In this document: positions 4,867 through 19,125 of the stretch, in pieces
How the letters are laid out: every line of letters starts with the position of its first letter
Position numbering within the stretch: the first letter of the stretch is position 1
Source: a virus
IMG/VR virus record: IMGVR_UViG_3300043449_001984
Span: 1 to 60,064 of that record
Length of the DNA stretch: 60,064 bases
Reading direction: 5' to 3' (one strand)
Position numbers and translations under genes: made by a program
The notes under the pieces: generated by a model
What the model was told of the DNA's origin: nothing
What the model saw: only the letters and a program-made list of their open reading frames with translations
Databases searched by the model: none

Positions 4867-4941
4867 TGGAAGCGAGTGGTGGAATCGAACACACCCTCTC
4901 TAGCTTATGAGACTAGAATAGTCACCAGACTACATACTCGC
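4867..4941 (-). tRNA. Degenerate tRNA with CAU anticodon
   Basis: Acceptor GCGAGTA/CACTCGC with an A-C mismatch, D arm TAGTC/GACTA, anticodon stem CTAGT/GCTAG with loop CTCATAA. The T arm reads GGTGTG-TTCGATT-CCACC, with an extra T breaking the stem, and the 3' end is TTCCA. The 5' end overlaps the last 12 nt of the Mrp-type gene. It may be decaying, or tolerated as a special CAU tRNA. Confidence 0.65.
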
Positions 4942-5778
4942 AAGTTCTTTTATAACTTTTAAAGCAATATTCTTATATATTTTAGAAATTTCTTTCTCTG
5001 ATGTTTGAAATATTAATGGTATTCCTTTATCAGAATTATCTCTAATACTTTGGTTAATAGGTATTGATCCTAATAATTTAGTATTAAATTTTTTCATCAT
5101 CTTTTTTGCGCCACCCTCTCCAAATATATGAGAAGTGTGGTTACAATTTGGGCAGACAAACAAACTCATATTTTCAACAATTCCAAGTATTGGTATATTG
5201 GAATCTTTAAACATCTGTATACCTTTTTGTACATCAAGTAAAGCAATTTCTTGTGGAGTAGTGACAATCACAGCTCCCGCCAAATTCATTTTATTTGACA
5301 TAGAAATTTGAATATCACCAGTTCCAGGTGGCATATCAACAATCAAATATTCAAGAACGTCCCATTTAGTTTTATACATTAAATGGTGAATCATAGAGTC
5401 CAACATTGGACCTCTCCAAGTCACCGATTGATCTTCATCAATCATAAATCCAATAGACATTGCCTGAATATTATAAGCCATCACAGGAATATTTTCCTCA
5501 AAATGCCTTTCCGTTTTTGTATTATTTACTCCAAGAAGTAACGGAACACTTGGTCCATATATATCTGCATCCAAAATACCAACCTTATAACCCAGTTTTG
5601 ATATTGAAGCAGCTATATTAACAGCGGTTGTAGATTTTCCAACACCCCCTTTACAAGAAGAAACTGCAATAATTTTTGTATTTGCAAGAGGATTTTCCTT
5701 TGGCTTATATCTTGCCATTAATTGCTTCAATTCTTCATCAAGAAATTCTTCAGTATTATCTGTTTGAGTATCTTCCAT
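4930..5778 (-). CDS. mrp: Mrp/NBP35/ApbC-type iron-sulfur carrier ATPase
   Basis: 282 aa. Deviant Walker A CKGGVGKST at residues 42-50, ADIYGPSVP switch region at 71-79, VDMPPGTGD at 148-155, and a CxxC pair (Cys209, Cys212) that in the family binds a bridging 4Fe-4S cluster. In bacteria these soluble P-loop ATPases carry Fe-S clusters to apo-enzymes. The N-terminal MIP18-like domain of full-length Mrp is missing, as in ApbC/NBP35 short forms. A good ribosome binding site (AAGGA) precedes ATG 5778. The stop codon lies inside the downstream tRNA gene. An unusual phage gene set inside the tRNA array. Confidence 0.88.
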   Translation of the reverse strand: MEDTQTDNTEEFLDEELKQLMARYKPKENPLANTKIIAVSSCKGGVGKSTTAVNIAASISKLGYKVGILDADIYGPSVPLLLGVNNTKTERHFEENIPVMAYNIQAMSIGFMIDEDQSVTWRGPMLDSMIHHLMYKTKWDVLEYLIVDMPPGTGDIQISMSNKMNLAGAVIVTTPQEIALLDVQKGIQMFKDSNIPILGIVENMSLFVCPNCNHTSHIFGEGGAKKMMKKFNTKLLGSIPINQSIRDNSDKGIPLIFQTSEKEISKIYKNIALKVIKELASM

Positions 5779-5993: not shown

Positions 5994-6284
5994 TGGTGCC
6001 GGTGGAGAGATTCGAACTCTCAATCCCGAAGGCGGCAGATTTTCTTACCACTATAGCTTTCACTACCATTTCTGTTTGTGGTCTGGACTATATCTTCACC
6101 ATATCATTAAGACTTAGGTGCTTGGGTATCTAGTCTCTACGGAGTCCTGTTTCCAGTTCCCTCGGTATTACCATCAGCATTATCTGTTAAGGTTTCACCG
6201 ATATCCCCAAGTCCACTTATACAATTTCTTATATAAGGCTCAAATTTCTCAAGTCTGCTGTGTATACCATTCCACCACACCGGC
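5994..6284 (-). tRNA. tRNA-Leu(UAA) interrupted by a group I intron
   Basis: The 5' exon is 6251-6284 (acceptor GCCGGTG, anticodon stem GCAGA, then CTT). The 3' exon is 5994-6043 (AAAA, TCTGC, a variable arm with a TTCG loop, T arm GAGAG/CTCTC, CACCGGC, A73, CCA). Joined, the anticodon loop is CTTAAAA, giving UAA, in a class II body as expected for Leu. The interruption falls between U34 and A35, the same place as the tRNA-Leu(UAA) group I intron of cyanobacteria and plastids. Confidence 0.92.
6044..6250 (-). mobile_element. Group I intron (207 nt) in tRNA-Leu
   Basis: The conserved group I core is visible: R/P7-side AGAGACTAGA and the S element AAGATATAGTCC. The 5' splice site follows a U that pairs with G in a P1 of exon CTT and intron GAG, and the intron ends in G (GGTAAG). 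No ORF lies inside. It is short and near the minimum for autocatalytic group I introns. Spliced exons restore a perfect anticodon stem-loop. The HNH gene at 6291-6710 is immediately upstream in transcription. Confidence 0.9.
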
Positions 6285-6290
6285 TTTTAT

Positions 6291-6710
6291 TCATTTACTA
6301 TACTGATTTTTACCTTCTTTGTTATTTGAAGGTTTTCCTTTCAACCCTTTTGCATTTAAGTTATTTAACATTTTTCTACTATTTAATTTTCTAGCTTCTT
6401 CTAAGCCATATTTTTCTACTAATTTCTGCCAACAGCTTTTCCAAGTTCCATTATCTTTAGCGTCTTGGATATTTTCTGATCTAGTTCCCCAGTATAAATG
6501 TTTTGGGTTAGAACATTTATCATTATGACAAGCGTGACATAAATCTATCCACGGATTTGGTTTATGGGGAATATTCGTATTCAAATATTGAGCAAGAACA
6601 CCTTTATGAACCGTACTGTTTCCACCACGCTCTATACAACATTCAGTCAAATCTAAATGCTCTGTTCTTGAATCTTTATTCTCTTTAATCCACTCTTCAA
6701 CCAAAATCAT
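6291..6710 (-). CDS. HNH homing endonuclease next to intron-bearing tRNA-Leu
   Basis: 139 aa. The HNH_3-type core is C58-H-A-C61-H-N-D-K-C66-S-N-P-K-H71-L-Y-W-G-T-R-S-E-N, with Cys pairs likely binding structural zinc and the GT-x-x-EN-x-x-D tail typical of phage HNH nucleases. The C-terminal NSRKMLNNLNAKG...GKPSNNKEG segment looks like a DNA-binding tail. ATG 6710 has AAGGA upstream and its own early promoter at 6740-6768. The stop codon is 7 nt from the tRNA-Leu 5' end. Such a free-standing nuclease may cut intronless tRNA-Leu alleles and so spread the adjacent intron (inference). Confidence 0.88.
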   Translation of the reverse strand: MILVEEWIKENKDSRTEHLDLTECCIERGGNSTVHKGVLAQYLNTNIPHKPNPWIDLCHACHNDKCSNPKHLYWGTRSENIQDAKDNGTWKSCWQKLVEKYGLEEARKLNSRKMLNNLNAKGLKGKPSNNKEGKNQYSK

Positions 6711-6723
6711 TTCATTTCCTTAA

Positions 6724-6783
6724 CCTCAACTACAGAACTATCTTAACCCATCAAGCCGCGAAAGTAAAGCGTTTTATTTTCGC
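6724..6783 (-). repeat. Promoter-hairpin repeat, copy 1
   Basis: 60-bp segment nearly identical to 6871-6930. It contains a long imperfect inverted repeat (GCGAAAGTAAA on one strand, 11-nt arms, 4-nt loop) overlapping the -35 box of the promoter at 6740-6768, and the shared GTAGTTGAGG start region. Confidence 0.75.
6740..6768 (-). promoter_or_regulatory. Early promoter for HNH gene and tRNA-Leu
   Basis: TTTACT (6763-6768), 17-nt spacer, TAAGAT (6740-6745). Reads into the HNH gene and then intron-bearing tRNA-Leu. Confidence 0.65.
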
Positions 6784-15929: not shown

Positions 15930-17018
15930 TTAAGAATGGCACGCTAGGCATTCTTCGCCTGCAATAATATCGTTCATATTAATTTCTTCAATAATATGAC
16001 GTTCAATTTGTTTGGACACTTTATCGGATTTTTTTAAACTATCAGATCTGCAGTAATATAATGTTGGAATTTTTTGTTTCCAAGCCATAAAATGAACAGC
16101 GTGTAAATATTTAATATGAACATTTGGTCTGAAAAACAAGTTCACTGATTGAGTTTGATCGATGTATTTTTGACGATCTGCAGCCAAATCAACAACCCAA
16201 CGTTGATCTATTTCCATAGCAGTTTTGAATACTTCTTTTTCTTGGTCTGTAAACATATCCATATGTTGAATAGAACCGTCGTTAGAAATAATATCTAACC
16301 AAATCTCATCATAGTTTAATTTTGAATTGTCTTTCAATTTTTCTTTAATAAGATTATCTAGAACGTGATTTTTATTTAAATAAGAACCAGACATAGTATC
16401 TTGACGATAAGCATTTGCTCTAATTGGTTCAATAGAAGGAGAAATATTTCCCATAATAATAGAAGTAGATGCCGTTGGAGCAATGGCAATTACGTGACTG
16501 AATCTTTGGTAATAAGGTTTTTCTCCTCTAATGCCTTCTTCAAAATCTGGACAATTGCCTCTCTCAAATCCAAGTTCTTTATTTGCTTGGTCTAAATGAG
16601 TTCTAATATTTTTAAATATTTGCATATTCCTAGATTTAGCAAGAGCTGATTCAAAAGGAACATTATTTTGTTGTAAATATGTATGAAATCCTAGAGTACC
16701 AACACCAATCGCCCTTTCTCTAGCAGCAGAATACTTTGCTCTAGAAATAGCATCTGGAGCATTATCAATAAAAACGGTAAGAACATTATCAAGCATTTCA
16801 GCAACATCGCGGAAAAATTGATAATTATCCTTAAAATCGTCATAATAACGAAGATTGACAGATGATAAGCAGCATACCGCAGTCCTTTCTTTATCAGTAG
16901 GAAGTATAATTTCAGAATTATGAACTAACACATCATTGGCGAAAAAGTTATTCACTTTTTCAACAGAAATATCATAAACTTTTGTCTTTTCTACAATCTT
17001 CTTTCTAATCTTAATCAT
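15930..17018 (-). CDS. nrdA: NrdA C-terminal part with C-terminal half of a split intein
   Basis: 362 aa. Residues 1-34 are an intein C-fragment: KVYDISVEKVNNFFANDVLVHN, with the F-block and final H-N, and Ser35 as the +1 nucleophile. The extein resumes SEIILPT, so Glu36 corresponds to E. coli E441. It continues with C49 (E. coli C462), ATPTAST-like phosphate loop (IAPTAST), LYYCRSD with the radical-path tyrosines, and C-terminal ECLACHS redox cysteines. It needs the partner at 17962-19125 and trans-splicing to make active NrdA. ATG overlaps the HNH stop by 8 nt and has an AAAGG site. Confidence 0.92.
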   Translation of the reverse strand: MIKIRKKIVEKTKVYDISVEKVNNFFANDVLVHNSEIILPTDKERTAVCCLSSVNLRYYDDFKDNYQFFRDVAEMLDNVLTVFIDNAPDAISRAKYSAARERAIGVGTLGFHTYLQQNNVPFESALAKSRNMQIFKNIRTHLDQANKELGFERGNCPDFEEGIRGEKPYYQRFSHVIAIAPTASTSIIMGNISPSIEPIRANAYRQDTMSGSYLNKNHVLDNLIKEKLKDNSKLNYDEIWLDIISNDGSIQHMDMFTDQEKEVFKTAMEIDQRWVVDLAADRQKYIDQTQSVNLFFRPNVHIKYLHAVHFMAWKQKIPTLYYCRSDSLKKSDKVSKQIERHIIEEINMNDIIAGEECLACHS

Positions 17019-17874
17019 CTTTTTTTACCTTTAATTTATTAAATTTTGCGGCATTATTTCTTTGTTGTATTGATCTGAAATATGGATCGTATTTAACATC
17101 ACTATCAAACTCTTTATTATATTCCGAAATAAAGTTTTGATAAGATCCAAAATTATTTTCAATCCACTTAACACTAATTTTATTAAATTCCTTAAATTCT
17201 TTTTTCAAATTATCATCCAAAAGAGAAATTTTCAAATGGTTTTCTATTAAACTATTTTCTAACACCTTAAACGCTCTATACTTTCTTTCCTCAGTCATTT
17301 TTTTGAAATTAGAATTATTACTTCCAATTTGAGATTTTCGGTTTTTTCTTTCCTCTTCCGATATTTTCCTACCTTTAGTATGATGAACCCATTTTCCGGA
17401 AACAACATTCGGATTATTGACTGAAACTCTACCAATCAGTTCTCCGCTAAAACAATCTTTGACTGTAATAAATCCCTTGTTTGCTTCTGATATATTTTTT
17501 AATCCCAATAATCTAAATTTTTCATATTTTTTGCTCTGATAATTAAAGTTTGTTAATCTTGGATGTTGAGGATCAATAACTTTTGAAAAGAAAAATATCA
17601 AAGAACTTCCTATTTTATATCCATATGCGGTGTCTTTATATATTTTGTATAATAATACATGACACAAGAAATGTTCTCTTGCAGTCAACAAAACTTTATT
17701 ATTCTTTTCTTCCGGATTTCCTTCTATGAACCCAGAAATTCCTTTCCTTTTTCTAGTTTTGAAAAGGCATTCTGGTATAATATGATGTTCTTCAAAATAT
17801 TGTCCGGAGTTTTTAGTTCTATTTTCTTTTTTTGCTTTTTGTATTATGTTTTTATATATTTTTTTATAGTTCAT
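17011..17874 (-). CDS. HNH endonuclease inserted between split-intein halves
   Basis: 287 aa. The HNH core is F27-E-E-H30-H31-I-I-P, N58-N59-K-V-L-L-T and E67-H68-F-L-C-H72, the H-H...N...H pattern of phage HNH nucleases. Residues 140-190 hold KWVHHTKGRKISEEERKNRK, a NUMOD3-like DNA-binding motif with the G-R-K-I-S-E-E signature. It is a free gene with its own late promoter (17901) and no intein blocks. Likely role: cut nrdA alleles lacking the insertion, so the fractured arrangement spreads (inference from fractured-gene precedents). Confidence 0.88.
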   Translation of the reverse strand: MNYKKIYKNIIQKAKKENRTKNSGQYFEEHHIIPECLFKTRKRKGISGFIEGNPEEKNNKVLLTAREHFLCHVLLYKIYKDTAYGYKIGSSLIFFFSKVIDPQHPRLTNFNYQSKKYEKFRLLGLKNISEANKGFITVKDCFSGELIGRVSVNNPNVVSGKWVHHTKGRKISEEERKNRKSQIGSNNSNFKKMTEERKYRAFKVLENSLIENHLKISLLDDNLKKEFKEFNKISVKWIENNFGSYQNFISEYNKEFDSDVKYDPYFRSIQQRNNAAKFNKLKVKKDD

Positions 17875-17900
17875 AATTCTGCTCCAAATAAACGCGCAAG

Positions 17901-17908
17901 TATTTATA
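17901..17908 (-). promoter_or_regulatory. Late promoter TATAAATA inside the fractured nrdA
   Basis: Exact late box 27 nt before the HNH ATG at 17874, in the 87-nt gap after the nrdA N-part. Confidence 0.65.
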
Positions 17909-17961
17909 CTAAGCAGAATTTCAGAACATACTAACTTATAGTATTCTATTGACTTTTTATT

Positions 17962-19125
17962 TCAAATTTCTAATAATTCATCAGACTCTTGTAAATCCTT
18001 TGCCATTACATATCCCCTATTAATTGTCCAAACCAAATGATCTGAAGTACATTCAATAATGTTTCCAGAAGGAGTTTCAATTTCATAAAGCTCTTCAACT
18101 TCGCCAGAAACCTTAGCACCATTGACTAAATTCCATTCAATTTCTTTTGTTTCGGTATTATAACTTTTTACATATACATCATCGTCGTAATATCCTAAAT
18201 TATATTTTTCAACAAAAGAATCCATATTATCAACTAGTAAGGTTTCTCCTTTCTTATCAAAAGAAAATTCCAATTCCGTTCCACCAACTAAACAACAAAT
18301 ATTAGATTGTTTAATTTCCAAACCAAGATTCTTTTGAAAATCTGGCATTTGTTCATTAGCAGTATCAATAAACAAAATATATGGTTCGCCAGTTTGCATT
18401 CTTAGTTCAAGAATTTTTTGCCAAAGTTCTTTTGCAGATACGGTTTCCTTGATTTTATCTGGATTATGAGTATCGTAAAGATTCCACGAATCATCAAAAT
18501 CAGGATCGATCATACATTGTTCGATAATATTCATAAACTTATCAGTTAGAATAATACCGTGATGTAAATTAAGGCATTTAATATTTTGATCTCCGGTTGG
18601 TTTACGCATCTCAAGAAACATCATAACATCTGGATGATCTACTCTAAGATAGGCAGCATAAGAACCGCGACGTGTCTTACCTTGACGATAAGCAAGACAA
18701 GAAGCGTCATAAATCTTTAGGTGGGGCATAACTCCAACACTTTTGTCGTCAGCAGAGCGAATATCAACGCCAATTCCGACTCCACCACCGAGCATTGAGA
18801 GGGTATTAACCTCAGAAAGAGTATCAACAAGACCAGAAGCAGAGTCTTGCATGTAAGAAAGGAAACAAGAAATTGGTAATCCATTTTTAGACCTCCCATA
18901 TGAAAGTATTGGAGTAGCAAAACTTAACCAATGCTTAGAAGCATAATCATATAATCGTTGAGAATGTTCTAAATTAGAACCAAAAGACTTAGCAACAAAA
19001 GCAAATCTTTGTTGCGGCGAAGTTTCTGCTTCCGTCATATATGATTCTTTTAATCGTTTGATCCCCAATTCATCAAACAGATTATCTCTTTCTGGATTTA
19101 TTTTTATACCAAGATAGTCTTCCAT
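17962..19125 (-). CDS. nrdA: NrdA N-terminal part with N-terminal half of a split intein
   Basis: 387 aa. Residues 1-277 are NrdA: C87 (ISCFLSY, E. coli C225), GGGVGIGVDIR, LNLHHGI, and KQSNIC ending at C277, the thiyl-radical cysteine (E. coli C439). Residues 278-387 are an intein N-fragment starting CLVGGTELEF with Cys1, block B TPSGNIIECTSDHLVW and NRGYVMAKDL. The N-extein is about 137 residues shorter than in E. coli before C87, so the ATP-cone allosteric domain is absent. Good site AGGAAG precedes ATG 19125. Trans-splicing would join C277 to Ser35 of the second protein, giving a 605-aa NrdA. Confidence 0.93.
   Translation of the reverse strand: MEDYLGIKINPERDNLFDELGIKRLKESYMTEAETSPQQRFAFVAKSFGSNLEHSQRLYDYASKHWLSFATPILSYGRSKNGLPISCFLSYMQDSASGLVDTLSEVNTLSMLGGGVGIGVDIRSADDKSVGVMPHLKIYDASCLAYRQGKTRRGSYAAYLRVDHPDVMMFLEMRKPTGDQNIKCLNLHHGIILTDKFMNIIEQCMIDPDFDDSWNLYDTHNPDKIKETVSAKELWQKILELRMQTGEPYILFIDTANEQMPDFQKNLGLEIKQSNICCLVGGTELEFSFDKKGETLLVDNMDSFVEKYNLGYYDDDVYVKSYNTETKEIEWNLVNGAKVSGEVEELYEIETPSGNIIECTSDHLVWTINRGYVMAKDLQESDELLEI

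Follow-up and report, generated by a model that had tools for sequence, protein, structure and literature searches.

The window analysed here comprises the 60,064 bases of an IMG/VR record and carries on its minus strand (6284–5994) a class II tRNA-Leu(UAA) gene that is split by a 207-nt group I intron. The intron belongs to an apparently overlooked family that extends across several kinds of phage tRNA, and the gene that it interrupts adjoins a co-oriented gene for a free-standing endonuclease. The arrangement is probably one of collaborative homing, in which a self-splicing intron without an ORF is mobilised by a separately encoded endonuclease that targets tRNA-Leu. Group I introns and phage homing endonucleases are both known as kinds of element; new here are the class of host gene in phages, the breadth across tRNA types and the tRNA-specific linkage. 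The locus consists of the following features.

6725..6770, minus strand: candidate promoter of sigma70 type, TTTACT...TAAGAT, preceding the endonuclease gene (read by eye)
6291..6710, minus strand: gene for a free-standing HNH/His-Me-finger endonuclease with a putative I-PpoI-like zinc loop, 139 aa, ending 7 bp before the tRNA (PHROG HNH, sub-cut-off PF05551 and weak I-PpoI matches)
6251..6284, minus strand: tRNA-Leu(UAA) 5′ exon, nt 1–34, ending CTT, with U34 at 6251 (sequence reading and ARAGORN)
6044..6250, minus strand: group I intron, 207 nt, without ORF, P1–P9 present, R element AGAGACTAGA, S element AAGATATAGTCC, terminal ωG at 6044 (RF00028 at 52.2 bits, ARAGORN and covariation)
5994..6043, minus strand: tRNA-Leu(UAA) 3′ exon, nt 35–84, CCA encoded (sequence reading and ARAGORN)

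The interrupted tRNA gene and its ribozyme

The joined exons form an 84-nt tRNA, including CCA, with an acceptor stem of 7 bp, an anticodon stem GCAGA/TCTGC bearing the loop CTTAAAA and the anticodon UAA, a long variable arm and a T stem GAGAG/CTCTC. An earlier note on this DNA, which gave no strand, had proposed that removal of 6044–6250 yields a class II tRNA-Leu(UAA) and that the insertion lies between U34 and A35. Both statements are correct to the base: ARAGORN, with introns allowed, returned c[5994,6284] tRNA-Leu(taa) i(35,207), agreeing on the gene, the anticodon and the length of the intron, whereas 500 shuffled copies of the tRNA-Leu region gave no intron-containing tRNA call.

The group I assignment made in that note, together with its reading of the R and S elements and of the U–G pair in P1, likewise holds. 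The covariance search for which it had called gave a match to the Rfam group I family (RF00028) at 6260–6062, spanning the full model (1–253) with 52.2 bits (E = 1.7e-12 for the 511-base region scanned), approximately 2 bits above the gathering cut-off of 50. The match is absent from whole-window Rfam scans and from a search of the intron’s own record under stricter or fast filters; it thus depends on filter settings and barely passes the cut-off, and automated annotation would miss the intron as window-scale scans do.

Direct reading of 6251–6239 shows the CUU of the 5′ exon paired with the GAG of the internal guide sequence (IGS) in P1, with U34·G10 at the splice site. The last intron base, at 6044, is ωG, and the UUU of the IGS can pair with the AAA of the 3′ exon as a possible P10. 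P2 forms a hairpin of 9 bp capped by a GAAA loop, P3–P9 can be drawn, with P7 formed by the R and S elements, and the 207 nt contain no same-strand ORF. Among 24 phage tRNA introns, compensatory changes are found in nine helices (P2, P3, P4, P5, P6, P7, P8, P9 and P9.1), with 933 cells of the helix alignment paired and 153 unpaired, indicating that the structure is maintained in the family. P3 is the weakest helix in this count, many of its cells being gapped or unpaired owing to an alignment shift.

The phage origin given in the earlier note is borne out by T4-like genes, among them those for PolB, RegA, a gp44-like clamp loader, a T4-type RNase H and a ribonucleotide reductase. The PolB protein is 42% identical to that of Synechococcus phage DSL-LC03, its nearest relatives being T4-like cyanophages, and no close cultured relative of the window phage was found. 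Relatives identified through the polymerase (L265–L274, 65–82%) contained neither a match to the tRNA nor a homologue of the endonuclease. No close relative covering the tRNA-Leu and endonuclease region was found in which presence and absence of the intron could be set against each other at otherwise equal loci. Searches with the neighbouring genes gave nothing informative, and a plasmid search gave only weak Bradyrhizobium matches to the core.

Other elements of the window were also recorded. The large subunit of the ribonucleotide reductase (15930–19125, minus strand) is divided over two ORFs, of which 17962–19125 ends in the N-terminal half of an intein and 15930–17018 starts with the C-terminal half; a homing endonuclease ORF (17011–17874, phrog_655) lies between them, so that the gene is fractured and its intein split. 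The phage tRNA cluster also includes a gene for a Mrp/NUBPL-type ParA P-loop NTPase (4930–5778, minus strand), and a tRNA-like sequence at 4872–4941 (minus strand) scores 33 bits against Rfam tRNA-Sec, under the cut-off of 47.

Within the near-complete tRNA set of the window phage, the product of the interrupted gene is the sole tRNA found to read UUA and UUG. These two codons account for 589 of the 917 leucine codons (64%) in the larger ORFs, so that splicing should matter to the phage. It is accordingly hard to credit that the insert is a group I remnant which has decayed and no longer splices, and that the tRNA gene is dead. Its narrow passage of the family cut-off would suit a relic, but the exons are intact down to the CCA, the U·G pair and ωG are present, the core helices all carry compensatory changes in the family, and no other tRNA of the set would serve the UUR codons.

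A family of introns in phage tRNA genes

Phage tRNA introns were gathered by pattern scans of viral contigs followed by ARAGORN, with a group I core required inside the intron. This resulted in 35 interrupted tRNA genes on viral records, 27 of them distinct. Most are genes for tRNA-Leu(UAA), the rest being Arg(UCU), Ile(UAU) and UCA-anticodon tRNAs, and the insertion site is nearly always after U34; the exceptions are L048 and L130, read as 33/34, and L261, which may be a Leu(CAA). ARAGORN labels of ‘Phe’, ‘Ser’, ‘Tyr’ and ‘Lys’ at several loci were reinterpreted as Leu(UAA) or Arg(UCU) by the position of ωG and exon length. Three false tRNA calls (L106, L111 and L003) and three chance-like calls in Bacteroidota (L185, L194 and L195) were excluded. 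In Microcoleus phage My-WqHQDG (OR578706.1; L121:1313–1598), a 286-bp feature annotated as ‘tRNA-Arg’ contains a 213-nt group I intron after the CCU anticodon.

Endonuclease genes are associated with some of these introns. Two tRNA-Arg(UCU) genes, in L062 (3470–4164) and L098 (6086–6764), hold group I introns of 606–620 nt with an HNH gene inside (Pfam HNH_3, E about 3e-12), and HNH genes stand beside the split tRNA genes of L128 (10 bp upstream), L129 (43 bp downstream), L065 and L022. No recognisable endonuclease gene was found close to those of L015, L053, L075, L107, L135 and L142.

Two further groups were observed in the course of the survey. UCA-anticodon tRNAs, either opal suppressors or tRNA-Trp, carry a group I intron at 34/35 in several phages (L015:725–1004, L135:650–924, L139, L257 and L259), possibly tying stop-codon recoding to tRNA splicing. 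In two Bacteroidota genomes (L187 and L189), tRNA-Leu(UAA) genes have group I introns at the same site with a phage-like GAGTGC guide.

According to a 2014 review, all phage introns then known lay in protein genes, despite the many tRNA genes of phages (PMC3984707). Within the open library covered by the literature search, phage tRNAs with group I introns were not found described, and the lineage to which the window intron belongs is apparently unreported.

Trees were built from the phage tRNA introns together with cyanobacterial (Leu, Arg and Asn) and Bacteroidota tRNA introns. The window intron falls inside a clade of phage tRNA introns (support 100/95), where its nearest neighbours are non-Leu introns of phage Ile(UAU), UCA and Arg(UCU) tRNAs (93/98). 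With all columns included, a clade uniting the window intron with the cyanobacterial Leu introns is rejected (approximately unbiased (AU) test, p = 0.0002), and a grouping of every Leu intron into one clade is rejected too (p = 0.0003). Since the window’s own R/S motif had served to find the phage set, the R and S columns were deleted from the alignment, and then P1–P2 as well. The phage clade persists after both deletions (94/90 and 98/97, respectively), and the rejections stand (p = 0.0047 and 0.0012 for the union of the window intron with cyanobacterial Leu introns), which speaks against the clade being an artefact of the search motif. The introns of L128 and L129, found by a P1–P2 pattern only, also fall inside it. 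One viral Leu intron, that of L127, changes between the phage and the cyanobacterial side with sampling.

These results bear on the suggestion, made in the earlier note, that the phage copy could be a vehicle for the lateral spread of the tRNA-Leu intron of cyanobacteria and plastids. The site between U34 and A35 is identical, the polymerase is nearest to that of T4-like cyanophages, although at only 42%, and the 5′ 40 nt of the intron (P1–P2 with the IGS, TTGAGCCTTA) resemble the Anabaena intron, with 86% identity over 35 nt. This likeness is restricted to nt 4–40 and is in part forced by pairing with the same exon, whereas the body of the intron is closest to the phage Ile, Arg and UCA introns, and a grouping with cyanobacterial Leu introns is rejected with and without the search motifs (p = 0.0002–0.005). 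A recent transfer from cyanobacteria is therefore highly improbable, and the vehicle idea finds only partial support. The 5′ end of the intron may be mosaic, and phage and cyanobacterial tRNA introns are likely to share a deeper ancestry.

A wider scenario can be advanced tentatively. A lineage of tRNA-invading group I introns belonging to phages may jump among U34 tRNA genes (Leu UAA, Arg UCU, Ile UAU and UCA) at anticodon position 34/35, driven in part by free-standing endonucleases specific for tRNAs; in that case the tRNA introns of bacteria and plastids could have come from a reservoir in phages.

The adjacent endonuclease gene and a proposed collaborative homing

The earlier note described the tRNA and its intron correctly and overlooked the adjacent gene at 6291–6710. 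The 139-aa product matches PHROG HNH families (E = 7e-9) and, below the cut-off, Pfam PF05551. Its top match is I-PpoI, in a PDB profile search (E = 0.017) and in a fold search (E = 0.13), both matches being weak, neither significant alone, and both confined to a small conserved core of about 31–37 residues in the putative zinc-loop and active-site region. The structural model has a pLDDT of 70, and a pattern of C, H and N residues is invariant over 12 proteins. The protein is presumed to be a homing endonuclease for tRNA-Leu(UAA). The promoter candidate at 6725–6770, to which a similar box at about 6925–6870 corresponds by eye, is likely to co-transcribe the endonuclease gene and the tRNA. 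A sequence resembling the 3′ half of a tRNA (GATGGGTTCGATTCCCATAGATCCACCA; 6870–6790, minus strand), not called as a tRNA, is located just upstream of the endonuclease gene with the promoter-like repeat on either side.

The endonuclease has 12 viral relatives (60–74% identity), 10 of which have their gene adjoining an intronless tRNA-Leu(UAA), upstream of it and in the same orientation; of the other two, one is at a contig end and one has a tRNA-Leu upstream. The further tRNAs around the linked relatives vary, with Asn, Asp, Met, Gly, Arg, Leu(UAG) and Leu(CAA) on the 5′ side and Met, Gly, Ile, Leu(CAA) and Leu(UAG) on the 3′ side, and the constancy of the endonuclease/tRNA-Leu pair amid these differing orders points to joint movement of the two as a cassette. 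Immediately upstream of the endonuclease gene, L247 and L248 each have a fragment that resembles the 5′ part of tRNA-Leu and stops at nt 26–27 (score 35; shuffled sequences reached at most 21–26), as might be left by insertional repair of a cleaved tRNA-Leu; a comparable fragment was seen by eye in L243. In two phages of the Straboviridae (Klebsiella phage vB_Kpn_AM_K6 and Citrobacter phage Ursula), the relatives are located within or close to tRNA regions without adjoining tRNA-Leu.

In collaborative homing, as described for F-CphI and the psbA intron of S-PM2, an intron protects its own allele while an adjacent endonuclease opens intronless alleles (PMC6083498, PMC10448857). The window shows the corresponding arrangement, a free-standing endonuclease gene adjoining an endonuclease-less intron, and the endonuclease gene is linked to the host gene of the intron also where the intron is lacking, in the 10 linked relatives.

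From this arrangement, we infer the following course of events. The ribozyme would self-splice in two guanosine-dependent steps, with P1 presenting CUU↓G at the U34·G pair, ωG closing the intron and the AAAA of the 3′ exon pairing with the IGS in P10, and splicing would restore the UUA/UUG-reading tRNA. The endonuclease would cut intronless tRNA-Leu(UAA) alleles of co-infecting phages, the phage’s own copy being split, and hence shielded, by the intron, and repair would copy endonuclease, tRNA and intron together. The ribozyme belongs to a lineage specific to phages that has passed from one kind of tRNA gene to another while keeping its place in the anticodon.

The main rival, which appears rather unlikely while deserving serious consideration, accepts self-splicing and makes the endonuclease an independent, SegB-like homing gene directed at some other part of the tRNA region, with adjacency due to chance or endonuclease turnover and intron spread due to reverse splicing of RNA or plain recombination. 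The absence of the intron from tRNA-Leu in all ten linked relatives shows that the endonuclease family is independent of the intron and must escape self-cutting there by another route; the site that it cuts may be elsewhere than in the anticodon loop. For many phage tRNA introns, no endonuclease gene can be recognised nearby, and the invasion of four kinds of tRNA at one anticodon position fits ectopic reverse splicing through a CUU-pairing IGS. Two observations speak against independence: 10 of the 12 relatives tie the endonuclease specifically to the neighbourhood of Leu(UAA), and the only intron-bearing case known is exactly a tRNA-Leu(UAA). Collaborative homing is the explanation preferred here. 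With its recurrence in several types of tRNA, at the site for which the intron of cyanobacteria and chloroplasts is famous, the phage lineage offers a concrete test of intron spread, and the ribozyme and endonuclease form a simple pair for examining whether collaborative homing operates on a tRNA gene.

Comparison with known systems

The cyanobacterial tRNA-Leu(UAA) intron shares with the window intron the host gene, the U34/A35 site, a small ribozyme without ORF, the CUU/GAG pairing in P1 and a similar P1–P2 region. The window intron differs in residing in a phage genome with a linked endonuclease gene, in the S element (AAGATATAGTCC, compared with AAGAGAGAGTCC in cyanobacteria) and in a core and 3′ part that fall on a separate, supported phage branch. 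The intron of Microcoleus phage My-WqHQDG is a phage tRNA group I intron from the same phage clade, located in tRNA-Arg(CCU), where the insertion follows the anticodon and not U34, and its record does not name the ribozyme.

In the F-CphI/psbA system of the T4-like cyanophage S-PM2, a free-standing endonuclease gene likewise stands beside a group I intron that encodes no endonuclease itself. Its target is psbA and its endonuclease has an Endo VII motif, in contrast to the tRNA gene and putative I-PpoI-like zinc loop of the window system, for which cleavage and protection by the intron are predicted. I-PpoI itself, a His-Cys box homing endonuclease, weakly resembles the 139-aa protein in the zinc loop and active-site region and is encoded within an intron of nuclear rDNA, whereas the window endonuclease is free-standing. 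SegB of phage T4 is also encoded in a phage tRNA cluster and biases the inheritance of tRNA genes, but belongs to the GIY-YIG family and has no accompanying intron.
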